Assembly: GCA_030065915.1 (NCBI GenBank)
Contig: JASJCQ010000004.1
Location: 1 to 64,000, forward strand
Length of the DNA stretch: 64,000 bases
Source of the DNA: Woeseiaceae bacterium
GTDB lineage: Bacteria > Pseudomonadota > Gammaproteobacteria > Steroidobacterales > Woeseiaceae
Direction: 5' to 3'
Below, piece after piece: positions 18,134 to 30,495 of this stretch. The translations under genes were made by a program, and so were the position numbers. Positions within the stretch are counted from its first letter, which is position 1, and each line of letters opens with the position of its first letter. Below the pieces are notes generated by a model. That model saw nothing but the letters and a program-made list of their open reading frames with translations. It did not search any database and was not told where the DNA came from.

Positions 18134-19300
18134 CTAAGCCGCAGCCGCAAAAAAATGGTCCTTCAGAGGCAGCGACGCCGCGCCGATCGCACTCGCATGC
18201 CCGCCCGCTTTCGATACGACCAGCCGCGGCAATGCCCGCGGCTTTCCGCGTCTCGAATCGTTGTAGATATCAATGTGCGGGATAACGCGGCGCGCGAGCT
18301 CCGCAGGCATGCGACCACCGAGCACGATGGCCTCCGGGTCGAGAATGGCGGCGAGCGCAGAGGCGATCAGTGAGAACGAGCTTCGGGTCTTGGCAATCCA
18401 CTCATCGATGCCCGGCCACTCGATATCGAAATTCGCGATCATCTCCGAGACGCCGGCATGCTCGATGCCATACTCGCCCAGGGTCTGCCGAAGCGATTCG
18501 AGCGACGGGTGCTGGTAGATATTCTGCGGCAGCAACAGGCCGATCTCGCCGCCATTGCCGTTGGTGCCGCGCATGAGTTCGTGGTCCATGATGATGCCGC
18601 CACCCAGCAGGGTATCGACGAAAAGGTATGCGAAGTTGTCGTAGATTCGTCCGGCGCCGACGAGGCTCTCACCGACCGCAGCCGCGTTGCCGTCGTTCTC
18701 GACCCACACCGGCATATCGAAGCGCTCCTCGAACAAGCGATCGATGGCGACCAGTGCCCAGTCATCGAGCAGGCGAGGCGTGTTGTAGATCGCCCCGGGG
18801 CCAATGTAACGGCCCGAGACACTGACGCCCATGCCGAAAATCCGGCTCTCGTCGATGGCATGATCGGCGACCATCTGACCGATGCTTTCTTCAGCGGTAT
18901 TCAATACCGCGTTTCGCGTCATCGCTGGCAGGTCGAAGTGTTCCTCGTGCACGACGGTGCCCGAGAAATCGAACAGTGCGACGGCAATTGCGTCGGTCAT
19001 CAATGCGACGCCAAACGAGTAGGCAAATTCGGGTCGAATTCGCACCGCGAGACCAGGTTGCCCGCGGCGGCCACTCATCACCTTGCGGCCTTCGGCAATG
19101 GCGTCAATCGAAATCAGGCCTTTGACGATGCGGGATATGCTCTGCTGCGCGAGGCCGGTCGCTTTGGCGAGCGCAGGCTGCCCAATCTCGCCCGACCGGA
19201 CGATGGTGCCGAGAACTCGCTGCTCCGAGCGCGACATCGGGTTGAGGCCGTGGTCGGCGTAAAACCGCGGGGTCGTGGCGCTTTTTCGAATCTCCAGCAC
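18134..19300 (-). CDS. ROK-family transcriptional repressor
   Basis: Protein of 388 residues with an N-terminal winged helix (about 20-80, GQPALAKATGLAQQSISRIVKGL) and a ROK sugar-kinase-like domain (VSGRYIGPGAIYN, VENDGNAAAVGESL, LGGGIIMDHELMRGTNGNGGEIG). The ROK zinc motif (CxCGxxGCxE) that normally follows GEIG is absent; LLPQNIYQHPS occurs there instead. It is divergent from the TonB receptor of the mannosylglycerate-type locus and is its likely repressor, with a sugar or glycoside as inducer. Binding sites are probably in 19301-19510. Confidence 0.9.
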   Translation of the reverse strand: MLEIRKSATTPRFYADHGLNPMSRSEQRVLGTIVRSGEIGQPALAKATGLAQQSISRIVKGLISIDAIAEGRKVMSGRRGQPGLAVRIRPEFAYSFGVALMTDAIAVALFDFSGTVVHEEHFDLPAMTRNAVLNTAEESIGQMVADHAIDESRIFGMGVSVSGRYIGPGAIYNTPRLLDDWALVAIDRLFEERFDMPVWVENDGNAAAVGESLVGAGRIYDNFAYLFVDTLLGGGIIMDHELMRGTNGNGGEIGLLLPQNIYQHPSLESLRQTLGEYGIEHAGVSEMIANFDIEWPGIDEWIAKTRSSFSLIASALAAILDPEAIVLGGRMPAELARRVIPHIDIYNDSRRGKPRALPRLVVSKAGGHASAIGAASLPLKDHFFAAAA

Positions 19301-19380
19301 GGCTAATTAACTCCTGGTGGGTGCTAATAATAGCGCTTATTCCCGAAAATTATGCAATTGCCGTCTGAAAAACCCTCGTT

Positions 19381-19416
19381 TATTACTCATTAAGGGTTGT
19401 AATACGGGTTTTAATG
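19381..19416. promoter_or_regulatory. AT-rich inverted repeats between ROK gene and TonB receptor
   Basis: TATTAC (19381-19386) pairs with GTAATA, and CATTAA (19388-19393) pairs with TTAATG (19411-19416), in an unusually AT-rich stretch within the 210-bp divergent region. The two pairs interleave. They are candidates for promoter and repressor binding, with arms too short to be certain. Confidence 0.35.
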
Positions 19417-19510
19417 TGGCAAAAATACACGTGGGTAGATGGCCCGACATCGGAACGCGATGGATCTCCGGGCTCGACCAATACAACGATGGAATTCAGG
19501 GGGATTTCCT

Positions 19511-22009
19511 ATGTTTAGCAAGAGACTACTGTTCCGTTCGGTCAGTGCCATTTGCGCATTGTCGATGTCGGCCTTCGCGTTTGCTCAATCAGATGCAGAC
19601 GATGAAGAAGTTATTGAAGAGGTCGTCGTAACCGGTACGGGCGCCAGTGTGGCTCGTACCCAGTTCGAGACGCCACAATCCGTCACGCAGTACAACGAAG
19701 AAGACTTGCGGTCCTTCTCGTCGTCGAGCCAGGCAGACATCCTGACCCAGCTGCCGGGTGTAAGCGCTGAAGGCGGCGGCGGTGAGGTTGCCACCAACGT
19801 CTTCCACCGTGCCCTGCCGTCAGGCGGCCAGTTTTCGTTCACGCCATTGCTATATGACGGCATGCCCGCGTTCACGACGTTCGGTCTGAACTCATCTGCC
19901 TTCGACGTCTTCTACCGGAACGACCTCGGTATCGAACGATCTGAGTTCGTTAGCGGCGGTGTATCGAACCTGTTCGGACCGGGATCTGTCGCCGGTATCG
20001 TCAACTATCTCAGCAAGACAGGTGATGACGATCCGACCGGCACTCTGCAGATCGAGGTAGCCGAAGAGGGACGCTTCCGCGGCGATTACTTCTTCAGCGG
20101 GCCGCTGAGTGAAGATTCCGACACCTATTACGCGTTGTCCGGCTACTATCGCGTCGATGAAGGTCCGCTCAAGTCGGGTCTCGAAACCAAGGGCTTCCAG
20201 GTCCGCGGCAACATCAAGCACATGTTCGACGACGGCAGCGGCTCTGTGACCGTCTATGGCCAGGCCATCGATGACAGCGTGCAGTTCTTCCTGCCGCTAC
20301 CCGTCGACGGCAATTCGCGGGAACGCGTCAGCGGCAACGACGGAGGCGAGGTGTTCACGATGAATACGGTGGACGCTACCGGTCTGTCTTACAGCACGCC
20401 GGACGGGCGCTTCGTCACGCCCATCGGCGACGGTGTCGTCACCAAGGGCCAGTCCATTGCTGTCGTTCTCGACAAAGACCTGAACGAAGACTGGACGATG
20501 AACGCGAAGATTCGCTACGCGCGTTACGACCACCAGTTCAACCTGTTCCTCGATGGCGACGCCATTGGTCCGAACACGCCGGAGACGCAAGCTGAATACC
20601 TGGCGAACCGCGGCATCGACGCCTTTGCTGCGAATGCAGTATTTACCTTCGCCGACAACAACGAAGTACTGCCGGCGAACTACCTGTTGTTCGGCAACCG
20701 CACATTGGATCGCTGGCGCGATGCCACAGACTTTTCGGCCGAGTTCAGCGTCGGAAGGAATCTGACGATTGGAGACGCCGAACACGCGATTACAATCGGC
20801 GGCTTCTTTTCCAACTCCGAAGCGGATGACATCAACTACATCACGACCTACCTCGGCGAGTTCAGTAACGCGCCAAGACTGGTCAACGTCACGCTGACCG
20901 ATGTCGCTGACGACGGCTCAGGCGAAAACGTTTTGGTCGCGACCCCGGGGTCGGACTTCATGTGGACGATGAACGGACTTGCGAACGCGAACGGCATGGT
21001 TGGCAATCGGCTTCGCAGCGCAAGCCGCACCGCGTTCTACGTCGCCGATCAGATTGAAGCCGGCGACTGGTCATTCGACTTCGGCGCACGCGTCGAACGC
21101 CTGGACGGTGATGTTCGCCAGTTCAACACCGACTCGTTCCAGATGGGCAACGACCCGACGGTCAGTGACCTGATCGAGAACGTCAGCTTCACCGACGGTT
21201 CGATCACGGCAGACACCCTCAGCGCTACCGAATGGGCATTCTCCGGTGGTCTTTTGTACCGCCTGGACGACACCAAGAACCTGTTCTTCAACGCGTCACG
21301 CGGCTTCTTCTTCCCGCAGATCCGCAGTGTGCCGTTCAGCGAAGGCCGCCTGGCGTCCTATGAAGGCGAGATCATCGACACGATCGAGGCCGGTATTAAG
21401 TTCGACTACGACAACTGGGACGGTTACGCCGCGTTCTTCTTCACGACGCTGGACGATCGTCGCAACGTCGACTTCGAGAACGACCCGAACAACCCGGGTA
21501 ACATCATCGAGGTCGTCACGCTGCAGTCGACGGAAGCTTACGGTATCGAAGGCAGCATTACGTACTACCTGAACGACTACTGGTCTCTGCATGGCAACAT
21601 CACGCTGCGCGACCATGAGTTCACGAAGGCGGGTAGCGCGGACGTCGTCGGCAAGGAGCTGCGCCGGCAGCCGACCGAGATGGTCAATACGGCGGTGCGC
21701 TTCAACTACGGCAACTTCGATGCCGCGTTGTTCCACAACTATCACGGCGACAACTTCGCTAACGACAATAACTCGGTCGAGCTGGACGGATACAACCTCG
21801 TCAGGCTCGAGGCAGGCTACAACTTCGAATTCGACAGTGGTCAGACGATGCGCATCAGTGCGCACGTCTTCAACCTGACGGACGAGCAGGGCATCACCGA
21901 GGGATCGCCGCGACAGGGTAACGCACAGTCTGGCGAGCCGGCGCAATTCTTCGTCGGCCGGCCCATCCTTCCCCGCAGAACAATGCTCAGGGTCACCTAC
22001 GACTTCTGA
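19511..22009 (+). CDS. TonB-dependent receptor for a sugar or glycoside
   Basis: Outer-membrane receptor of 832 residues from the ATG at 19511. A longer in-frame start at 19439 adds 24 residues before the signal peptide; AGGGGG just upstream favours 19511. The signal peptide ends near AFAQS and is followed by a TonB box (EEVVVTG), a plug domain (SSSSQADILTQLPGVSAEGGGGEVATNVFHRALPSGG split by short breaks, about 65-110) and a 22-strand-sized barrel ending in RVTYDF. It is first in the run of uptake and catabolic genes opposite the ROK repressor. The neighbouring enzymes point to mannosylglycerate as the ligand. Confidence 0.9.
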   Translation: MFSKRLLFRSVSAICALSMSAFAFAQSDADDEEVIEEVVVTGTGASVARTQFETPQSVTQYNEEDLRSFSSSSQADILTQLPGVSAEGGGGEVATNVFHRALPSGGQFSFTPLLYDGMPAFTTFGLNSSAFDVFYRNDLGIERSEFVSGGVSNLFGPGSVAGIVNYLSKTGDDDPTGTLQIEVAEEGRFRGDYFFSGPLSEDSDTYYALSGYYRVDEGPLKSGLETKGFQVRGNIKHMFDDGSGSVTVYGQAIDDSVQFFLPLPVDGNSRERVSGNDGGEVFTMNTVDATGLSYSTPDGRFVTPIGDGVVTKGQSIAVVLDKDLNEDWTMNAKIRYARYDHQFNLFLDGDAIGPNTPETQAEYLANRGIDAFAANAVFTFADNNEVLPANYLLFGNRTLDRWRDATDFSAEFSVGRNLTIGDAEHAITIGGFFSNSEADDINYITTYLGEFSNAPRLVNVTLTDVADDGSGENVLVATPGSDFMWTMNGLANANGMVGNRLRSASRTAFYVADQIEAGDWSFDFGARVERLDGDVRQFNTDSFQMGNDPTVSDLIENVSFTDGSITADTLSATEWAFSGGLLYRLDDTKNLFFNASRGFFFPQIRSVPFSEGRLASYEGEIIDTIEAGIKFDYDNWDGYAAFFFTTLDDRRNVDFENDPNNPGNIIEVVTLQSTEAYGIEGSITYYLNDYWSLHGNITLRDHEFTKAGSADVVGKELRRQPTEMVNTAVRFNYGNFDAALFHNYHGDNFANDNNSVELDGYNLVRLEAGYNFEFDSGQTMRISAHVFNLTDEQGITEGSPRQGNAQSGEPAQFFVGRPILPRRTMLRVTYDF

Positions 22010-22023
22010 ATTGCCTCTGCATA

Positions 22024-22071
22024 GGCCGGCGGGGCTCGATGGCCCCCGCCTCCCCGCCGGCCGATTTTTTT
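22024..22071 (+). terminator. Strong rho-independent terminator after the TonB receptor
   Basis: A perfect 11-bp GC stem (GGCCGGCGGGG at 22024-22034 with CCCCGCCGGCC at 22052-22062) is followed by GA and seven T (22065-22071). It separates receptor transcription from the downstream symporter and enzyme genes, which must be reached by read-through or a second promoter. Confidence 0.9.
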
Positions 22072-22075
22072 CTTG

Positions 22076-22091
22076 CGGTAATCTTGTACCG
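22076..22091. promoter_or_regulatory. Inverted repeat before the symporter gene
   Basis: CGGTA (22076-22080) and TACCG (22087-22091) flank a 6-nt spacer, just after the terminator and 25 bp before the symporter start. This is a possible operator for a second promoter of the enzyme genes. Confidence 0.35.
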
Positions 22092-22115
22092 TAACTCGAC
22101 GCCTGAAGGCTGCTC

Positions 22116-23705
22116 ATGAACGCATTGGATTACACCGTCGTTGCCGCATACCTCGGAGGCTTGCTGCTGTTCGGCTTCATGCTCCGCGACCAATCGAGTG
22201 AAGGTGACTACTTTCTCGGCGGCCGCAGCATGGGGTGGTTCCCGTTGACCTTGTCAACAATGGCGACTCAGCTGTCCGCCATCAGTTTCGTATCGGCGCC
22301 CGCGTTCGTCGGTCTGCGAGAAGGTGGCGGTCTCAAGTGGCTGACCTACGAGTTCGCATTGCCGCTGGCCATGATCCTGGTCATGTTCGTCATCGCGCCA
22401 GCGCTGTATCGGGCAGGCATTGTCAGTATCTACGACTATCTCGAAAAGCGTTTCGGACGGGGTACGAGAATACTGATCAGCGCGTCATTCCAGATCGTCC
22501 GGTCGTTTGCCACCGGCATCATGGTGTACGCCATGGGTCTCATTCTCGAGGCCGTGCTTGGCATACCGCTATGGCAGTCCTTGTTCGTCGTCGGAATCAT
22601 CACGCTGGTGTACTCGACATCGGGCGGCATGAAGGCCGTCGTTTACGGCGACGCCATCCAGATGTTCCTGATCTTTGGCGGCCTGCTCGTCGTCACAGGC
22701 TACGCGCTGGCCGAGATCGGCGGCCTCGGCGAGTTCTGGAGTTCGGTCGACAAGGAACGCCTCGTGGCGGTGGACTTCAATTCGCTGGGCTTGAACGGCG
22801 ACGAGTTTGGCTTCCTCCCGATGCTGTTCGGCGGATTCGTGTTATACGCATCGTATTACGGTTGCGACCAGACGCAGGCGCAGCGCATCATCTCCGCGAA
22901 GGACTTGAAGGACACGCGCATCCTGCTGTTTGCCAATGGCATCCTGCGCTTCCCGCTGGTGCTCTTGTACTGCTTCGCCGGCCTCATCGTCGGTGTCGCC
23001 TTCTTCAACGATCCCGAGCTACTTGCGAAGATACCCCCTGACAAACCCGACTATATGATGCCGATATTTATCATCGAGCATCTGCCTCACGGCGTTATCG
23101 GCCTGCTGCTTGTCGCGATAATGGCGGCTGCAATGTCGTCGCTCAGTTCCGCGGTGAACTCGCTGGCCGCGGTGACGATGGAAGACCTGTCGGTGCTGGG
23201 AGCGAAGCCGTCTACCGAGCGAGCCGAAGTCATGCTGGCGAGGGGCGTATCCGTGTTCTGGGGTATAACGATCCTGATCATGTCGTTATTTGCCGGAGCC
23301 ATCGCGCCGACGGTGATCGAGGCGATCAACAAGGTCGGCTCGGCGTTGTACGGGCCGATCCTGGGCGTCTTCCTGCTCGGTATGCTGACGAAGAAAGTGA
23401 ATGGCGTTGGCGCCAGCACCGGGTTGCTGGTTGGAATGTTCTTCAACCTCTATCTCTGGAAGTCACATCCGGAGATCTTCTGGATGTGGTGGAACTTCAT
23501 CGGGCTCGTCCTGACGTCGGTCGTGGCAATCGTCGTCAGCGGGATCATAGGCAAGGTTCCGGAGGAGCTGCCGATCGCAGACCACCGAGCGACGGTGGCC
23601 AGCGTTGCACGATCGCCGTACACGATCGCGCTGGTGTCGGTTTTCGGCCTGATTGTCCTCATCAGCACCGTGCTTAAGGACCTGCATGCATGGATCTCAG
23701 GGTAG
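22116..23705 (+). CDS. Sodium:solute symporter (SSS family)
   Basis: Inner-membrane symporter of 529 residues with about 13-14 helices. SSS features include GDYFLGGRSMGWFPLTLSTMATQLSAISFVSAP (broken here across residues 29-61) and the helix-5 region STSGGMKAVVYGD. The last 16 nt overlap the glycerate kinase gene. Its position between an outer-membrane receptor and cytoplasmic catabolic enzymes makes it the inner-membrane importer of the intact glycoside, Na+-driven by family rule. The substrate is inferred from neighbours. Confidence 0.92.
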   Translation: MNALDYTVVAAYLGGLLLFGFMLRDQSSEGDYFLGGRSMGWFPLTLSTMATQLSAISFVSAPAFVGLREGGGLKWLTYEFALPLAMILVMFVIAPALYRAGIVSIYDYLEKRFGRGTRILISASFQIVRSFATGIMVYAMGLILEAVLGIPLWQSLFVVGIITLVYSTSGGMKAVVYGDAIQMFLIFGGLLVVTGYALAEIGGLGEFWSSVDKERLVAVDFNSLGLNGDEFGFLPMLFGGFVLYASYYGCDQTQAQRIISAKDLKDTRILLFANGILRFPLVLLYCFAGLIVGVAFFNDPELLAKIPPDKPDYMMPIFIIEHLPHGVIGLLLVAIMAAAMSSLSSAVNSLAAVTMEDLSVLGAKPSTERAEVMLARGVSVFWGITILIMSLFAGAIAPTVIEAINKVGSALYGPILGVFLLGMLTKKVNGVGASTGLLVGMFFNLYLWKSHPEIFWMWWNFIGLVLTSVVAIVVSGIIGKVPEELPIADHRATVASVARSPYTIALVSVFGLIVLISTVLKDLHAWISG

Positions 23706-24973
23706 GCATTGACGGGCATCGAGACATGCTCGAGCAGCTGTTCAAGGCCGGCGTCGGTCGTTGCCTGCCGCGCAAGGTGCTGCCGCAGCTGTTGCCAGCC
23801 GACGCACCGCGAGGTCGCAATATAGTCCTGGGCGCCGGCAAGGCATCGGCAGAAATGGCCGCCGTCGCGAACGACATACTCAAAGGGACAACCGTAGGCC
23901 TGGTCGCAACTCGTCACGGCCACGGTGCGTTTTCATCCACCGGTGACATTGAGGTCATCGAGGCCGGTCATCCGGTACCGGATGCCTATTCCTTTGAAGC
24001 GGCCGAGAAGATGCTGAAGCTGGCCGAGACCGCGACGGCCGATGATCGTGTGCTGTTCATGTTCTCAGGCGGAGGCTCTGCGCTGCTGAGTGCGCCAATA
24101 GCCGGCATTTCCGCCGATCGTAAACAGCAGATCACGCGTTTCCTGTTGCACAGCGGGGCAAAGATCGACGAGATCAATTGTGTTCGCAAACATCTGTCGC
24201 GAATAAAGGGAGGCGCGCTCGCTCATCGGGCTGCCAACGCCGAGCTGATGACCTTCGTGATCTCCGATGTCGTCGGTGACGATCCGTCGGATATTGCGTC
24301 GGGTCCATCGGTGCCCTACCAGCGGGACGTCAGGAAGGCCTCCGCCATACTGGAGAGATACAACTACCCGGACGTCAGCGTCGTTGCGGAGGCGATCCGC
24401 CAGGCGGAGCAATTCGACGCTCCTGAGCACCCCATCCTCGTTGCGGCAACGGCTACGATGGCTCTCGACGCGATCGCAGCCGAAGCCGAGATCGCAGGCT
24501 GGAAACCGATCAGCATCGGCGAGAATCTTGAGGGCGATGCATCAGAGACCGGCAAAGCGCATGCCGAGCTTGCCCTGCGGTACCGCGACCAGGCAGAGCG
24601 AGTGGCACTGATCTCGGGCGGCGAGCTGACCGTCCAGGTCAACAATCGTGACGGACACGGCGGACCGAACCTCGAGTACCTTGCGAGCCTGATGCTGAGT
24701 CTCGACGGCGCGAACGGCATTGAGGCGCTGGCCTGCGACAGTGACGGCATCGATGGTTCGGAAGATAATGCCGGCGGTTACGTCTCTCCAACGTCCCTGC
24801 AGCGCGCCTCCGACAAACACGTTGTGGTAGAGGACCTTCTGAACAACAACGACACGTACACGTGCTTCCAGGCCCTGGGCGATCTGATCGTGACCGGCCC
24901 GACACGCACGAACATCAATGACATCAGGGTCATCCTGGTTGACCCGAACGTAAGGAGTGGTGCCAATGCCTGA
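23690..24973 (+). CDS. Glycerate 2-kinase (GK-II, MOFRL family)
   Basis: Protein of 427 residues with the DUF4147 N-domain (NIVLGAGKASAEMA, MFSGGGSALLSAP, CVRKHLSRIKGG, DVVGDDPSDIASGP) and the C-terminal MOFRL domain (LISGGELTV, ALACDSDGIDGSEDNAGG). These are hallmarks of class II glycerate kinases, which make 2-phosphoglycerate from D-glycerate and ATP. It is translationally coupled to both neighbours (16-nt overlap with the symporter, 8-nt overlap with the hydrolase). In this operon it would process the glycerate released by the GH63 hydrolase and feed lower glycolysis. Confidence 0.92.
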   Translation: MDLRVGIDGHRDMLEQLFKAGVGRCLPRKVLPQLLPADAPRGRNIVLGAGKASAEMAAVANDILKGTTVGLVATRHGHGAFSSTGDIEVIEAGHPVPDAYSFEAAEKMLKLAETATADDRVLFMFSGGGSALLSAPIAGISADRKQQITRFLLHSGAKIDEINCVRKHLSRIKGGALAHRAANAELMTFVISDVVGDDPSDIASGPSVPYQRDVRKASAILERYNYPDVSVVAEAIRQAEQFDAPEHPILVAATATMALDAIAAEAEIAGWKPISIGENLEGDASETGKAHAELALRYRDQAERVALISGGELTVQVNNRDGHGGPNLEYLASLMLSLDGANGIEALACDSDGIDGSEDNAGGYVSPTSLQRASDKHVVVEDLLNNNDTYTCFQALGDLIVTGPTRTNINDIRVILVDPNVRSGANA

Positions 24974-26234
24974 CGAAGTAGACAACAAGGCAAAAGAGAT
25001 TCTGCGCGCCAACGACAAAGGCGGTTTCACGGTGCCGACCGGTGGTCTGTACCCCTACCAATGGAACTGGGATTCGATGTTTGTCGCGTTGGGATTCGCG
25101 ACCTTCGATCGATCACGAGCTTGCCAGGAAATCGAAACCCTGTTTGAAGCTCAGTGGAGTGACGGCTTCGTGCCGCATATCGTATTCAGGCGCGAGGATC
25201 CCGATTATTTTCCCGGCCCATCGGTATGGCAAGCCGGAGAGACGCTTAAGACCTCCGGTATCACTCAACCGCCGGTCGCTGCGACCGTCGTAAACAAACT
25301 ATGGTCCGAGACAGAGGATGAGTCGATCAGGGAACGCCTTGCCGCGTTGTTTCCGAAGCTGCTGGCCTGGCACCGCTGGTTTCACAGCTGTCGGGTTCCG
25401 GAGGACGTTGGCGCTGCTGTCGTCATACACCCGTGGGAAAGCGGTCGCGATAACTCGCCGGAATGGGATTCGCCTGCAACCGCCATCGACGTGTCCGGGA
25501 TCGAGCCTTACACGCGACGCGATCTGCAACATGCCGATCCGCACATGCGCCCGACGAAACAGGATTACGATCGCTACATCGCGCTGGTCGAGTATGGAAG
25601 GGGTACCGGCTGGGATCAGAAGAAAATAGCCACCGAAGGCCCATTCCGCGTCGCCGACGTAGGTATGACGATGATACTGCTGCGAGCCACCCGAGATTTG
25701 TTGGAGTTGGGCAGACGACTTGAGCACGATGACGTTTTGCCGGAAATCGAGGGTTACCTGCGCCAGCTGGAAACGGGCGTTGACTATCTGTGGGACAATG
25801 ATCGGAAGACATTCTGTTCGCGGGATACGGTGAATGGCCGGCATTCCGGAATGGTCACCAGCGCGTCATTCCTTTACGCCTACGCAGGCGCGGGTAATAA
25901 AGAGCAGAGAGAGCACATGATGAAGCATTGGGAACGCATCAGTGCCAGCGCCGAATACACGGTGCCCAGCCAGGACCCTGGCGACGAGAACTTCGACCAC
26001 ATGCGCTACTGGAAGGGCCCCGTGTGGATCGTCGTCAACTACATGGTGTCGCGAGGCTTTGCAGAGCAGGGCATGCAGGAGGCGGCGGATCGCATTCGCA
26101 CAGACTCCGGACGCCTCATCGAGCAGCACGGGTTTAACGAGGCCTTCTCGCCGAAGACCGGTGCCGGCACCGGTGGCAGTGATTTCTCCTGGACGGCCGC
26201 AATGTGGCTCGCCTGGTGCGGCGACGGCGCCTGA
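24966..26234 (+). CDS. mgh: GH63 mannosylglycerate/glucosylglycerate hydrolase
   Basis: About 422 residues from the ATG at 24966, 8 nt after an AAGGAG site; a GTG at 24957 is less likely. It is an (alpha/alpha)6-barrel hydrolase of the GH63-type MgH group, matching the length of Thermus MgH (about 420). Motifs include LYPYQWNWDSMFVALGF (28-44), WSDGFVPHIVF, HPWESGRDNSPEWD (155-168, bearing the acidic cluster expected for the general acid) and a C-terminal EAFSPKTG...FSWTAAMWL. MgH enzymes split mannosylglycerate or glucosylglycerate into hexose and glycerate. The flanking glycerate kinase strongly supports this. No signal peptide, so cytoplasmic. Mannose versus glucose preference is inferred from the isomerase and sugar kinase that follow. 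Confidence 0.85.
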   Translation: MPDEVDNKAKEILRANDKGGFTVPTGGLYPYQWNWDSMFVALGFATFDRSRACQEIETLFEAQWSDGFVPHIVFRREDPDYFPGPSVWQAGETLKTSGITQPPVAATVVNKLWSETEDESIRERLAALFPKLLAWHRWFHSCRVPEDVGAAVVIHPWESGRDNSPEWDSPATAIDVSGIEPYTRRDLQHADPHMRPTKQDYDRYIALVEYGRGTGWDQKKIATEGPFRVADVGMTMILLRATRDLLELGRRLEHDDVLPEIEGYLRQLETGVDYLWDNDRKTFCSRDTVNGRHSGMVTSASFLYAYAGAGNKEQREHMMKHWERISASAEYTVPSQDPGDENFDHMRYWKGPVWIVVNYMVSRGFAEQGMQEAADRIRTDSGRLIEQHGFNEAFSPKTGAGTGGSDFSWTAAMWLAWCGDGA

Positions 26235-26237
26235 CCC

Positions 26238-27203
26238 ATGCGACGCGTGGTCTGTTTCGGCGAAGCGCTGATCGATTTTCTGAATACCGGTCAGGAGTTG
26301 GCCGACGGGGCAGCGCATAAGGTCTTCACTCAGTTTCCCGGCGGCGCTCCGGCCAACGCTGCCGTGGCGGCTGCCAAGCTCGGCGCGGACGCGGCGTTCG
26401 CAGGCCAGGTCGGCGACGATCCTTTCGGGACGTTCATTATCGATGCGCTCGAGCGCTACGGTGTCGACACGAGCCTGACGCTTGTTCATCCGGATGCGCC
26501 TACAGCGCTGGCGTTCGTTTTTCTTGATGCGAACGGCGAGCGCAGTTTCTCATTTCGTCGCGACAGAACCGCTGATGTCGTGATGACCGAACAACAGGTC
26601 GGCTCCGACTGGTTCGTCGGCAGACCGATACTGCACTTTTGCAGCAACACGCTGACAGACGCTCACATCGCCGGCGTCACTCGGTACGTCGTCGATCAGG
26701 CAAGAAGCGGCGAGGCCACGATCAGCTTCGACGTCAATTTGCGCCACAACCTCTGGCCGCGTGGCGTGGCGGACGCAGAGGCCGTCAACAACCTCGTCCG
26801 CCAGTCAGACGTTGTCAAATTCTCTAAAGACGAACTGGATTTCCTTTGTGGAGGAGACCGTGATGCTTACCTCGAGTCCGCATTTGCAGCCGGCCTGAAA
26901 GCAGCGCTGGTTACGGATGGGCCGGGAGATATCGAGGTCGCAACCGCTGAGTCACGCTCGACGGTATCGCCACCGGCGACGGATGTCGTCGACACGACCG
27001 GGGGAGGAGACGCGTTTATCGGTGCAGTCCTGTACGGGCTCAGTCTGCAGGACGACGTTACTGAATTCCTGCTCAACGTCGACAGGCTCACGAGCCTCGT
27101 TGCCTCAGCGGCGCGCTGCGGAGCGATTGCCGTATCTCGCAAAGGTGCGTTTCCGTCGTTTCCCACGTTTGACGATGTTGCGAACACATGGAGCGTGCAG
27201 TGA
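26238..27203 (+). CDS. PfkB-family sugar kinase (probable fructokinase)
   Basis: Ribokinase-family kinase of 321 residues. The N-terminal motif is FPGGAPANAAVAAAKLG (about 35-50), and the C-terminal signature is DTTGGGDAFIGAVLYG with the catalytic Asp. The sugar contact loop and size match fructokinases. It begins 3 bp after the hydrolase stop. With the next gene, an AGE-type isomerase, it completes mannose to fructose to fructose-6-phosphate. The assignment of fructose is from context; mannokinase or 2-keto-sugar kinase activity is possible. Confidence 0.88.
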   Translation: MRRVVCFGEALIDFLNTGQELADGAAHKVFTQFPGGAPANAAVAAAKLGADAAFAGQVGDDPFGTFIIDALERYGVDTSLTLVHPDAPTALAFVFLDANGERSFSFRRDRTADVVMTEQQVGSDWFVGRPILHFCSNTLTDAHIAGVTRYVVDQARSGEATISFDVNLRHNLWPRGVADAEAVNNLVRQSDVVKFSKDELDFLCGGDRDAYLESAFAAGLKAALVTDGPGDIEVATAESRSTVSPPATDVVDTTGGGDAFIGAVLYGLSLQDDVTEFLLNVDRLTSLVASAARCGAIAVSRKGAFPSFPTFDDVANTWSVQ

Positions 27204-28381
27204 CCGACTTTCGGAGTCGTGAGTTCCTGCTTGCGCACATCAAGTCGATTCTGGATTTCTACCTGCCGGCAGCGGTTGACCACAGCGGAGGCTACTTTCA
27301 GAACTTCAAGGACGACGGCAGCGTCTTTGACCCCGGCCAGCGTCACCTCGTCAGCAGCTGCCGGATGGTGTTCAACTTCTGCAAGGCGTACGAGCTGTTC
27401 GGCGATGTTGCCTATCGCGACACGGCAAAGCATGGGCTGGAGTACATCCGGGAGCGACATTGGGACGAGGCGAGGCAAGGGTTTAACTGGACATTGAAAG
27501 ACGGGCACCTGCCCGATGACCAGACTAACCAGTGCTATGGGCTGGCATTCGTCATGTTGACTTCAGCGGCGGCGCACGAGGCGGGTCTGGACGGAGCGCT
27601 TGCCGACATTGAGCGCGCCTGGTCGACCATGGAAGCGCGTCTGTGGGATGCGCCGATCGGGCTCTACGCCGATGAGGCGACACCCGATTGGTCCAGCGTC
27701 GACACTTATCGCGGACAGAACGCCAACATGCACAGCTGCGAGGCGCTCATCGCGGCATTCGAGGCGACGAGGGAGGAGAAATACCTCGGTCGCGCGTACG
27801 ACCTGGCGAGACTCATAACGATCGATCTGGCCGACAAGTCGGATGGCCTTATCTGGGAGCACTTCACGTCGGACCTGAATGCTGACTGGGACTACAATAA
27901 GGACGATCCGCGGAACCTGTACCGGCCGTGGGGCTTCCAGCCCGGCCACCAGACGGAATGGGCCAAGCTGCTACTGACCCTTCACGTCCATCGACCCGAA
28001 GAGTGGATGGTCGAACGAGCCACACAGTTGTTCGATCGAGCCCTCGAAACCTGCTGGGACCATGAGCACGGCGGCATTTTGTACGGTTTCGCGCCGGACG
28101 GCAGGATTTGCGACTCGGACAAATACTTCTGGGTGCAGGCCGAGTCATTCGCAGCCGCAGCCAGGCTGCATCGCCAGACGGGCGATCAGAAGTACAGCGA
28201 GTGGTACGAGCGAATCTGGCAGTACGCCTGGGAGCACATGATCGATCATGAATACGGAGCCTGGTATCGGATCCTGACCAGGGACAATCGAAAGTACAGT
28301 GACGAGAAGTCCACCGCGGGTGGCAAGTGCGACTACCACACTATCGGCGCGTGTTGGGACGTGCTCCGTATCTCCGACTGA
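27200..28381 (+). CDS. AGE-family sugar isomerase/epimerase (probable mannose isomerase)
   Basis: About 393 residues. I favour the GTG at 27200 (GTGA overlap with the kinase stop, GGAG 7 nt upstream) over the ATG at 27188. It is an (alpha/alpha)6 barrel of the N-acylglucosamine 2-epimerase family, with MVFNFCKAYELF, AHEAG, NANMHSCEALIAAFEAT, RPWGFQPGHQTEWAKLL and the final HTIGACWDVL. In this family such His-bearing loops catalyse aldose-ketose isomerisation or C2 epimerisation. Next to a fructokinase and a mannosylglycerate hydrolase, mannose isomerase is the most coherent activity. Cellobiose 2-epimerase is the main alternative. Confidence 0.85.
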   Translation: MTDFRSREFLLAHIKSILDFYLPAAVDHSGGYFQNFKDDGSVFDPGQRHLVSSCRMVFNFCKAYELFGDVAYRDTAKHGLEYIRERHWDEARQGFNWTLKDGHLPDDQTNQCYGLAFVMLTSAAAHEAGLDGALADIERAWSTMEARLWDAPIGLYADEATPDWSSVDTYRGQNANMHSCEALIAAFEATREEKYLGRAYDLARLITIDLADKSDGLIWEHFTSDLNADWDYNKDDPRNLYRPWGFQPGHQTEWAKLLLTLHVHRPEEWMVERATQLFDRALETCWDHEHGGILYGFAPDGRICDSDKYFWVQAESFAAAARLHRQTGDQKYSEWYERIWQYAWEHMIDHEYGAWYRILTRDNRKYSDEKSTAGGKCDYHTIGACWDVLRISD

Positions 28382-28548
28382 CGCGACTGCCGGAAAGCCC
28401 GCAACTTCGCGTGCGGCCAAAGCCGTATTCGATGGTTCCTGGTGGCTACCACGCCCGATAGACAATCCGCGGCATTGGCAACTTTGAGCGGTGAGGGTTC
28501 TCCCGGCCACTTGTGGTTGCCAGTCGCCGTCGTCGCTATGATCAGCCG

Positions 28549-30495
28549 ATGAATTTGTCGCGGCCACTCATCATTGTCTTCCTTTGCGCTGCAGCCGGAT
28601 GTTCCGGTGCACAGGAGCCTGTATCAGCTGTCGCGCAGGCTTCGGCTCCACCGGAATTCGTCGGCAGCGACGCGTGCGCCGACTGTCATGCTGACGAGTA
28701 CACCGAATGGCAGGGCTCGCATCACGAGCTGGCAATGCAGGTCGCGAACGAGCAAACGGTGCTTGGCGACTTCGACGACGCCAGCGTCGACTACTACGGT
28801 GCGACCACTCGCATGTATCGGGACGGCGATCGTTTCATCATGCAGATCGGGAACGCATCCGGCGATCTCGAGGAGTTCGACGTCAGTTTTGCGTTCGGCG
28901 TAGAGCCGTTGCAGCAGTATCTGACCGACTTTCCGGACGGGCGCAAGCAGGTGCTTCCCTTCGCCTGGGACACCCGGGCGCCCGACGAAGGCGGGCAGCG
29001 GTGGTACCACCTGTATCCGGATGAAGAGATCCGTCACGAAGACGTCCTGCACTGGACGGCCCGCTACGCCAACTGGAACTACATGTGTGCGGAGTGCCAC
29101 TCAACGGACCTGCGAGTAGGTTACGAACTGGAAACGGACACGTTCAACACCACCTGGTCCGAGGTTTCGGTCGGCTGCGAGGCCTGTCATGGCCCAGGCT
29201 CAACTCACATAGCGCAGGCGAGTGGCGGTTTCGACGACCGGCATGGTCTGCAGGTCGATCTCGACGATCGCAGGGATGCGGCGTGGATCATGAACCCCGA
29301 GACCGGGATCGCCGAACGCAGCGAGTCGGTTGTCACGCAGCAACAGCCCGAGAGTTGCGGACGCTGTCATTCACGGCGCGGCGTCATCGCGGATCCCTAC
29401 GAGTACGGCAAACCGTTGCTGGACACGCATCGGCTCGCGCTCCTCGAGGAGGGCCTTTATCACGCGGACGGCCGTATCCTCGATGAAGTGTACGTGTACG
29501 GGTCATTCGTCCAGAGCAAGATGTATCGAGCCGGCGTCACCTGTTCCGACTGTCACAACCCACACTCCGCCGACCTGCATACCGGACCGGATCCCAACGA
29601 TATCTGCGCGCAATGCCACCTGCCGACGAAATTTGCGACAACGGAGCATGCGCCCGGCAACGACTGCGTCGCCTGTCATATGCAGGACGAGGTCTACATG
29701 GGCATAGACCCGCGACGTGATCACAGCTTCCGGCTTCCTGGTACGCAGTCGGATCCGGACCACTACGGCGCGGCGATTGCCGCCGCACGCAGTGGCCAGG
29801 TCGATGTCATGGCCGCTAAGAACAGAGCATATCCTGCAGTCGCTCGAGCGACTCTGCTGACGCTCCTTCGGGCGCCATTCGAAGACGATGAGGTCGCTTT
29901 GCTGGACGGTGCGGTACGTGACCCGGACCCACTGCTGCGCTTTGCGGCACTACAGGCCCTGCACGCAGCACCGCCGGAACTTCGCCCATCGCTGGGCGCA
30001 GAGTTGCTTGCGGATCCGGTTCGTTCGGTTCGCATCCAGGCGGCGCTGACCTTCGTCGAGAGTCGTGACCTCCTGCCGCTGGACGCCGCCCGCGCGTATG
30101 CCGGCGCCGCCGAGGAATACCGGCAGGCTCTGTTGGCGACCGCAAGCGTTCCCGAATCGATGACATTCCTGGCGGATTTCGAGTTTCGCATGGGCGACAA
30201 CGGTCAGGCGATTGAGTACCTTCAGCACGCCATCCGACTCGATCCGAGACTGGCTGTGGCGCGCCACTCCTATGGCCTGGCGCTGGTTCGAGAGCGCCGC
30301 TACGACGAGGCACTGGCTGAACTCGAGCGAGCTTACGAACTCGAGCCTGGCAATGCGCGCTTCGCGTATGTTTACGCGGTCTCCCTGAATTCCCTGGGCC
30401 TGGTGAAGGAGGCCAGGGCGGTTCTCGCGAAGGCAAGCGAGGATTTCCCGGGCGACTCAGACATCCAGTCTTTCTGGCGATTGCTCAATCAGTAG
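28549..30495 (+). CDS. Seven-heme c-type cytochrome lipoprotein with TPR domain
   Basis: About 648 residues from the ATG at 28549; a start at 28513 would add 12 residues. The lipobox is AAAGC (Cys18). Seven CxxCH heme sites are visible: CADCH (43-47), CAECH, CEACH, CGRCH, CSDCH, CAQCH and CVACH, all in the first two thirds, as in c554-like multiheme cytochromes. An alpha-helical repeat region and TPR units fill the C-terminus (EYLQHAIRLDPRLAVARHSYG). It is periplasmic and lipid-anchored, with a redox or electron-relay role; the partner is unknown. It is convergent with the persulfide-dioxygenase-like gene. Confidence 0.88.
   Translation: MNLSRPLIIVFLCAAAGCSGAQEPVSAVAQASAPPEFVGSDACADCHADEYTEWQGSHHELAMQVANEQTVLGDFDDASVDYYGATTRMYRDGDRFIMQIGNASGDLEEFDVSFAFGVEPLQQYLTDFPDGRKQVLPFAWDTRAPDEGGQRWYHLYPDEEIRHEDVLHWTARYANWNYMCAECHSTDLRVGYELETDTFNTTWSEVSVGCEACHGPGSTHIAQASGGFDDRHGLQVDLDDRRDAAWIMNPETGIAERSESVVTQQQPESCGRCHSRRGVIADPYEYGKPLLDTHRLALLEEGLYHADGRILDEVYVYGSFVQSKMYRAGVTCSDCHNPHSADLHTGPDPNDICAQCHLPTKFATTEHAPGNDCVACHMQDEVYMGIDPRRDHSFRLPGTQSDPDHYGAAIAAARSGQVDVMAAKNRAYPAVARATLLTLLRAPFEDDEVALLDGAVRDPDPLLRFAALQALHAAPPELRPSLGAELLADPVRSVRIQAALTFVESRDLLPLDAARAYAGAAEEYRQALLATASVPESMTFLADFEFRMGDNGQAIEYLQHAIRLDPRLAVARHSYGLALVRERRYDEALAELERAYELEPGNARFAYVYAVSLNSLGLVKEARAVLAKASEDFPGDSDIQSFWRLLNQ

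Follow-up and report, generated by a model that had tools for sequence, protein, structure and literature searches.

The window analysed here is a 64,000-nucleotide stretch from a Woeseiaceae bacterium, and at 18134-28381 it carries a putative operon of the mannosylglycerate type, comprising seven reading frames that are all open at the coordinates collected in Table 1. The families named in a first-pass annotation, namely a TonB-dependent receptor (TBDR), an SSS symporter, a GH63 hydrolase (MGH), a glycerate 2-kinase, an AGE isomerase, a PfkB kinase, and a ROK protein, were all matched in Pfam. The same genes stand in a slightly different order from the one it listed, TBDR-SSS-kinase-MGH-PfkB-AGE, with the ROK gene divergent from the receptor gene. 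Its description of overlaps or 3-bp gaps between most enzyme genes agrees with the coordinates. A gap of 106 bp follows the TBDR gene, the symporter and glycerate 2-kinase genes overlap by 16 bp, and the latter overlaps the MGH gene by 8 bp if the ATG at 24966 is the start or by 17 bp if the GTG that opens the frame at 24957 is used; the PfkB gene lies 3 bp beyond MGH and overlaps the AGE gene by 16 bp. The receptor frame extends from 19439 to 22009, and its in-frame start at 19511 yields a signal-peptide-like N-terminus. A scan for promoters and terminators gave no excess over shuffled sequences. A multihaem cytochrome/TPR gene at 28513-30495 was considered as a further member and rejected, as a 131-bp gap separates it from the isomerase gene; among the loci compared, it adjoins the isomerase gene only in L010.

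Table 1. Positions, strands and supporting matches of the genes and the candidate operator in the window
Feature	Position	Strand	Support
ROK-family protein, probable repressor	18134-19300	-	PF00480 1.3e-26
Imperfect inverted repeat, candidate ROK operator	19381-19404		leave-one-out motif search
TonB-dependent receptor (TBDR), predicted outer-membrane uptake, ligand inferred	19511-22009	+	PF07715 (plug), PF00593 (barrel), both above cut-off
SSS-family sodium:solute symporter, predicted inner-membrane uptake, ligand inferred	22116-23705	+	PF00474 1.3e-47; TIGR00813 above cut-off
DUF4147/MOFRL glycerate 2-kinase	23690-24973	+	PF13660 1.3e-72, PF05161 2.7e-32
GH63 mannosylglycerate/glucosylglycerate hydrolase (MGH), predicted	24966-26234	+	PF22422 2.2e-111
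PfkB-family sugar kinase, probably fructokinase	26238-27203	+	PF00294 5.9e-50
AGE-superfamily isomerase, probably D-mannose isomerase	27188-28381	+	PF07221 8.4e-104

The characteristics of the hydrolase can be described by comparison with enzymes of known structure. MGH is 47% identical to the Thermus MgH chain 2z07 (193/410) and 36% identical to the mycobacterial chain 6g3n (150/415), and it keeps all 17 placeable contact residues, with D165 and E395 among the matches (17 of 18 positions identical; Gln434 unplaceable). The contact residues and the catalytic Asp/Glu used here are those named in the accessible part of PMC6608630. From its family and these conserved residues, MGH is predicted to hydrolyse mannosyl- or glucosylglycerate. 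According to that source, the MgH enzymes of Thermus and Selaginella are about equally efficient on the two glycosides and glucosylglycerate is preferred by the mycobacterial one, so MGH does not by itself settle the sugar. Reading the sugar from the residues was also attempted and given up: all 53 rows compared show the same residues at the 17 placed contacts, and the hydrolase sequence therefore does not separate the two sugars. A neighbouring position does vary: D409 of the window protein corresponds to G in the Thermus enzyme and to Q in the mycobacterial one. In a tree of 53 rows (L099 and L100 left out), the window protein falls in a six-row clade, termed type I (100/100), separate from a type II clade (100/99); the deep branching of the Thermus enzyme and the mycobacterial one came with a long-branch warning, is uncertain, and was not used.

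The AGE protein is probably a D-mannose isomerase, being 53% identical to PDB 5x32 (205/384) and 55% identical to 3gt5 (214/387), with the histidine motifs RGQNANMH, QPGHQTEW, and DYHT common to all three. The PfkB kinase is probably a fructokinase, with the fructokinase 3ljs as its best PDB match (3.3e-57). The glycerate 2-kinase exceeds the cut-offs of both DUF4147 (244.5 bits) and MOFRL (111.5 bits) and matches the glycerate kinase 2b8n at 1.2e-64. Curated equivalog cut-offs in NCBIfam lie above the scores of the hydrolase, the isomerase, and the kinases: the D-mannose isomerase model NF051846 gives the AGE protein, which is nearer to 5x32 and 3gt5, 216.9 bits (cut-off 600), the fructokinase model NF006957 gives the PfkB protein 190.5 bits (cut-off 450), and two models give the glycerate 2-kinase 207.5 and 163.1 bits (cut-offs 550 and 670, respectively).

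Judged by family and linkage, the solute would cross the outer membrane through the TonB receptor and enter the cytoplasm with sodium through the SSS symporter, where MGH may split mannosylglycerate into mannose and glycerate. Glycerate would be converted to 2-phosphoglycerate by the glycerate 2-kinase, and mannose would be isomerised by the AGE protein to fructose and then phosphorylated by the PfkB kinase, steps through which both halves would reach glycolysis. The locus is most likely a glycosylglycerate uptake and catabolic operon, with mannosylglycerate as the most likely substrate; glucosylglycerate may be a lesser substrate of the receptor and the hydrolase.

A search with the TBDR, independent of MGH, matched 10 of the 296 genomes searched from the order and 3 of 398 in a phylum sample, the window's own genome included in both, and MGH lies within the receptor locus in all 12 genomes found in this way. 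The next best match to the TBDR in its own genome reaches 28%, only over residues 5-201. The genome search for gene order suggested by the first-pass annotation found the full order again in G025 and, from another genus of the family, in G476; G021 keeps it with PfkB missing, and in G020 and the Woeseiaceae MAG contig JASJBE010000056 the contig ends interrupt it. Such recurrence argues that the order is not due to chance. The ROK gene is also divergent from the TBDR gene in G025, G021, and G476. Farther away, in G1021, from the same class, AGE-MGH adjoins TBDR-SSS-glycerate kinase-ROK, and G949, of another class, has TBDR-MGH followed by an SDR, a mannonate dehydratase, a KdgK-like PfkB protein, and an SMP-30/gluconolactonase-like protein, with a glycerate kinase, ROK, and SSS nearby. 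The mannonate dehydratase, which exceeds the cut-off of TIGR00695, stands there in the place of the isomerase, and this branch fits a second, different route for mannose. Mannonate dehydratase serves glucuronate breakdown too.

A different hexose branch occurs in six sister loci of the genus (type II), where a glucosylglycerate phosphorylase (GH13_18) accompanies ROK, TBDR, SSS, and a 40%-identical MGH. All seven GH13_18 copies at MGH loci, from six Woeseiaceae and L026, carry the TETN and PYELN motifs, marks of a strict glucosylglycerate phosphorylase according to the accessible parts of PMC7178133 and PMC10608839. The TBDRs of five of these sister phosphorylase loci are 73-76% identical to that of the window, and the receptor therefore probably takes glycosylglycerates as a class. 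Such receptors, together with the characterised hydrolase relatives that take both glycosides in the accessible part of PMC6608630, could also mean that mannosyl- and glucosylglycerate are served about equally, through one receptor and one symporter, with a promiscuous hydrolase releasing both hexoses, mannose going to the isomerase and glucose to a glucokinase elsewhere. This reading is considered unlikely, as the isomerase is present in all six type I loci seen and the operon in the window lacks GH13_18, which also had no match in the host genome at E 1e-10.

The isomerase was followed across genomes. It is present in 8 of the 12 TBDR/MGH genomes tested, in a single copy each and always at the MGH locus (8/8), and absent at E 1e-10 from G434, G023, G028, and G615, which implies that the pair of TBDR and MGH is not bound to mannose in every carrier. 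Among 368 sampled genomes of the class, window excluded, the isomerase had 12 matches and MGH 5, with 2 genomes shared (P 0.009), a weak association given that one MGH match is a 101-aa fragment and the genes lie on different contigs in both sharing genomes; the isomerase occurs without MGH in the other 10 of 12. Among the 8 of these 12 isomerase loci that were fetched, PfkB adjoins or lies near the isomerase in three, and a mannosidase-like GH2 adjoins it in one.

It could further be supposed that glucosylglycerate is the true substrate and that the isomerase is incidental or acts on another sugar. NF047898, the glucosylglycerate hydrolase equivalog, is the best NCBIfam match of MGH, at 352.3 bits below its curated cut-off of 550, and marine cyanobacteria accumulate glucosylglycerate, going by a title cited in PMC11631117. 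Nevertheless, MGH is nearer to the Thermus than to the mycobacterial enzyme, and the isomerase, nearest to mannose isomerases, is linked to MGH wherever it occurs among the TBDR/MGH genomes or is replaced by the mannonate dehydratase branch in G949, so this supposition appears very improbable. The earlier argument that glucosylglycerate would need no isomerase holds, and the G949 core gives it independent support. The proposal of a mannosylglycerate uptake and catabolic operon, in turn, is backed by gene content, order, residues, and the linkage comparison; what has to be added to it is possible dual use with glucosylglycerate, in view of the hydrolase family taking both glycosides and of the phosphorylase in the six sister loci.

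As to the origin of the solute, mannosyl-3-phosphoglycerate synthase (MpgS) had no match in the host genome (99.98% complete), with the Thermus positive control matched, and no glucosyl-phosphoglycerate synthase exceeded its cut-off there; only the cut-off of the latter model was used, since all 14 controls match it at low score. The absence of an MpgS match favours scavenging. MGH relatives adjoin MpgS in 8 of the 18 Verrucomicrobiota MGH loci seen, which makes bacteria a possible source as well, and the idea that the source is red-algal digeneaside gained no support. The same arrangement might suggest that the operon recycles mannosylglycerate made by the host itself, for which there is scarcely any probability: the two synthase searches, which covered enzymes other than the GT78-type mannosylglycerate synthase, speak against it, and a TonB receptor and symporter head the operon. 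A scavenging system for 2-O-alpha-mannosylglycerate is, with good confidence, the preferred reading of the gene set.

Control by the ROK protein is plausible, as the divergent gene and the inverted repeat, a candidate operator, are conserved in type I loci; repression at this repeat would probably be released by a sugar or the substrate. The helix-turn-helix match of the protein is MarR_2 at 22.9 bits (cut-off 27). In a leave-one-out search among type I loci, the candidate operator was recovered in 4/4 at widths 20 and 24 and in 3/4 at width 22, and a matrix from the three other loci gave the window repeat 17.9 at width 24, with the second-best site of the 64 kb at 7.8. A joint palindrome search of ten ROK-TBDR gaps reached 152, and 40 shuffles of the bases never exceeded 132, a comparison that does not allow for relatedness. 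Scanned with the matrix of the six type II loci, the 64 kb gave its two top-ranked sites at 19381 and 19305, in that order, and the ROK-TBDR gap came first in 4/4 type I loci; with the type I matrix it did so in 3/6 type II loci. These cross-type matches are partly circular because the frame of 22 bases had been taken from the joint search. An operator common to both types was rejected, as a frame from type II alone put its best site in the gap in 0/4 loci at widths 20, 22, and 24. Loci without this TBDR score equally high (up to 12.0). No claim is kept for 19305 as an operator, and only the type I leave-one-out result stands.

Several known systems can be compared with this locus. E. coli mngAB likewise serves the uptake and use of mannosylglycerate, and it differs in working through the phosphotransferase system, by which the solute enters as a phosphate ester, and in having another hydrolase. 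MGH loci of an ABC type occur in Rhodobacterales and some Gammaproteobacteria. There the hydrolase gene neighbours a sugar importer (19 of the 50 loci in the comparison), the ABC transporter replaces TBDR and SSS, and the isomerase is in none of the 19 as fetched. The GH13_18 loci share ROK, TBDR, SSS, and MGH with the window, whose operon lacks the phosphorylase. The Thermus thermophilus MgH (GH63; PDB 2z07, 4wva) has all placed contacts in common with MGH and is described as an enzyme; a TonB/SSS uptake operon was not found in the literature searched. The statement that no TonB version was known is corrected by digeneaside loci predicted in marine Flavobacteriia, which the accessible text of PMC6298971 places among mostly SusC/D-bearing North Sea PULs and that of PMC8072126 reports citing Barbeyron 2016; the idea of digeneaside loci, SusC-type included, is thus not new. 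Those of Zobellia galactanivorans, Maribacter, and the North Sea PULs concern the same glycoside in marine bacteria, with breakdown predicted. Compared by their accessible descriptions only, they belong to another phylum, whereas the window has a TBDR not named SusC, an SSS symporter, and ROK. What seems to be new is the proteobacterial gene set.

On the comparative evidence, it seems somewhat probable that two or more classes of Pseudomonadota have a TonB-dependent glycosylglycerate system, one that runs in parallel with the digeneaside loci predicted in Flavobacteriia and did not arise from them. Its core would consist of TBDR, MGH, a ROK or LacI regulator, and usually SSS and a glycerate kinase, combined with interchangeable hexose branches (mannose isomerase plus fructokinase, mannose oxidation via mannonate, or glucosylglycerate phosphorolysis). 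Red algae and certain microbes make mannosylglycerate as protection against salt, and it is a major solute in some of these algae and in some bacteria. Little is known about the bacteria that consume it, as open-access literature searches gave, in the accessible texts, only the predicted flavobacterial loci, and the operon offers testable genes. A TonB receptor that otherwise has no name would gain a likely ligand class, and this TBDR beside MGH may serve as a marker for tracking the mannosylglycerate pool. The exchange of isomerase, mannonate dehydratase, and phosphorylase behind related receptors may allow the sugar to be read comparatively from the gene set, and the system, if real, would amount to a general route for feeding on red-algal and bacterial osmolytes.

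A conserved operon is present in the window, consisting of a divergent gene for a ROK regulator and six plus-strand genes encoding, in order, a TonB-dependent receptor (TBDR), a sodium:solute symporter (SSS), a DUF4147/MOFRL glycerate 2-kinase (GCK), an MGH1-like GH63 hydrolase (MGH), a PfkB kinase, and an isomerase of the AGE superfamily. These families, named in the first-pass annotation, were all recovered by family searches, and the tight spacing it described for the enzyme genes was likewise found, with neighbouring genes from SSS through AGE overlapping or lying 3 bp apart, and a gap of 106 bp between TBDR and SSS. A multihaem cytochrome gene follows; among the compared loci, such a gene adjoins AGE in L010, a Woeseiaceae contig, only.

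Positions of the operon, the candidate regulatory site, and related features
Feature	Location	Strand	Content
Operon	window 18134-28381		ROK gene and six plus-strand genes
Candidate site	window 19381-19404		24-base imperfect inverted repeat
Multihaem cytochrome	window 28513-30495	+	TPR repeats; directly 3' of operon
G615 locus (another family of the order)	L071 4464-13609		LacI, TBDR (42%), SSS (50%), MGH (55%), GH65-family enzyme; no isomerase
Second MGH1-like hydrolase, G949	L099 2767-4605	-	612 aa; between SSS and glycerate kinase
Second GH13_18 copy, G015	C12:12937-15428		41-43% identical to L048 copy
Second GH13_18 copy, G024	C134:822-3424		41-43% identical to L048 copy
Rhodobacteraceae locus	L026 3113-13569		LacI, ABC sugar importer, MGH, glycerate 2-kinase (46%), GH13_18 enzyme with glucosylglycerate phosphorylase motifs

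The genome search for this gene order that had been proposed returned matches in G025 and G476 and, without PfkB, in G021, while in G020 and L010 the order is truncated by contig ends. In the nearest named relative, a Woeseiaceae MAG, MGH is 85% identical to that of the window, and the SSS-to-AGE genes are present as far as the contig end, which places the host in the Woeseiaceae or among close kin of that family (Woeseiales, Gammaproteobacteria). Leave-one-out analysis of these type I loci recovered the window's inverted repeat from three others, succeeding in 4/4 loci at widths 20 and 24 and in 3/4 at width 22; since the promoters are related, this conservation amounts to footprinting and is not proof, and the repeat is a candidate site. 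Its prediction from sites of the sister loci failed a clean test and was rejected.

Those sister (type II) loci, found in G023, G028, G024, G015, G031, and G434, carry ROK, TBDR, a GH13_18 enzyme, and SSS; their MGH shares about 40% identity with the one in the window. AGE is present in three of the six loci and PfkB in one. Identities to the window in five of them are 73-76% for TBDR, 42-46% for ROK, 53-55% for SSS, and 39-41% for MGH (G434: 70%, 46%, 56%, and 39%), and the second-best TBDR match within the window genome is 28%, over residues 5-201. The motifs TETN and PYELN, described in passages of PMC7178133 and PMC10608839 as the fingerprint of strict glucosylglycerate phosphorylase, occur in all seven GH13_18 copies (six type II loci and L026). 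The presence of so similar a TBDR beside these motifs suggests that the receptor probably recognises glycosylglycerates. The second GH13_18 copies of G015 and G024, distant from the uptake locus, adjoin a glycosyltransferase with a sub-cut-off glucosyl-3-phosphoglycerate synthase match, and perhaps serve own glucosylglycerate metabolism.

TBDR searches at E 1e-100, run on 296 genomes from the taxonomic order and on a phylum sample of 398, gave matches in 10 and 3 genomes respectively. The window genome is in both sets of matches, hence 12 genomes, and MGH lies within the TBDR locus in every one; a thirteenth, G025, was located via MGH and is not counted as independent linkage. In G1021, of the same class (TBDR 52%), AGE-MGH adjoins TBDR-SSS-GCK-ROK.

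The window MGH is 47% identical (193/410) to Thermus thermophilus MgH (2z07) and 36% (150/415) to the mycobacterial chain 6g3n. PMC6608630 names 18 positions with a contact or catalytic role; the window protein is identical at 17 of them, D165 and E395 included, Gln434 being unplaceable, and these 17 are invariant across 53/53 MGH rows compared. According to the same paper, the Thermus and Selaginella enzymes act with similar efficiency on mannosyl- and glucosylglycerate, whereas the mycobacterial enzyme prefers the latter, so MGH alone cannot tell the sugar. AGE retains three histidine motifs and is 53% identical to 5x32, a D-mannose isomerase of Marinomonas mediterranea in the relevant section of PMC7762179; fructokinases are the nearest relatives of PfkB, and GCK matches solved glycerate kinases. 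The hydrolase, isomerase, and kinases score below the NCBIfam equivalog cut-offs, and enzyme specificity therefore rests on relatives and context.

Among 12 TBDR/MGH genomes tested (G020 and G025 in, G949 and G1021 out), eight carry the isomerase, each as a single copy that lies at the MGH locus; across 369 genomes sampled from the class, it usually occurs without MGH. Its absence from the G434, G023, G028, and G615 genomes counts against a uniform mannose reading. In G615, a GH65 enzyme adjoins SSS, and the substrate is possibly a related alpha-glycoside of glycerate. G949, of another class in the phylum (TBDR 56% identical), has SSS, a second MGH-like hydrolase, GCK, a weak LacI match, ROK, TBDR, and MGH, followed, close-set on the same strand, by an SDR dehydrogenase, a mannonate dehydratase scoring 469 bits against a cut-off of 199.55, a PfkB (KDG kinase nearest, 272 bits, under the cut-off of 400), and an SMP-30/gluconolactonase-like protein. 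This argues strongly for mannose oxidation through mannonate, short of proof because mannonate dehydratase also acts in glucuronate breakdown.

E. coli mngAB, a PTS route, is a comparison system for mannosylglycerate use. An open-access search for mannosylglycerate with TonB-dependent returned only a Halomonas genome paper, the term being confined to its reference list, and mannosylglycerate with mannose isomerase returned nothing. Among the open-access matches listed, with few subscription papers in the searched literature, none described TBDR and SSS, MGH, glycerate kinase, mannose isomerase, and ROK in Proteobacteria. Bacterial use of digeneaside, the mannosylglycerate of red algae, is already predicted, for a group of loci most of which bear SusC: a passage of PMC6298971 names it among possible substrates of flavobacterial loci, and one in PMC8072126 mentions homologues of Zobellia digeneaside-degradation genes, with Barbeyron 2016 as source.

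The host genome (99.98% complete) yielded no match to mannosyl-3-phosphoglycerate synthase (MpgS; control search positive in Thermus composti), none to the GH13_18 phosphorylase at E 1e-10, and no glucosyl-phosphoglycerate synthase above cut-off. In Verrucomicrobiota, MpgS and a HAD-type protein adjoin MGH in 8 of 18 loci, these calls resting on Pfam for L011 and on similarity for the rest, with some of the other ten loci on short contigs. Judged from the host searches for MpgS, the GH13_18 phosphorylase, and glucosyl-phosphoglycerate synthase, scavenging is more likely than turnover of the host's own product. Red-algal digeneaside is a hypothetical source. Taken on gene content and homology, the operon very likely serves glycosylglycerate catabolism, and mannosylglycerate would be its most likely substrate.
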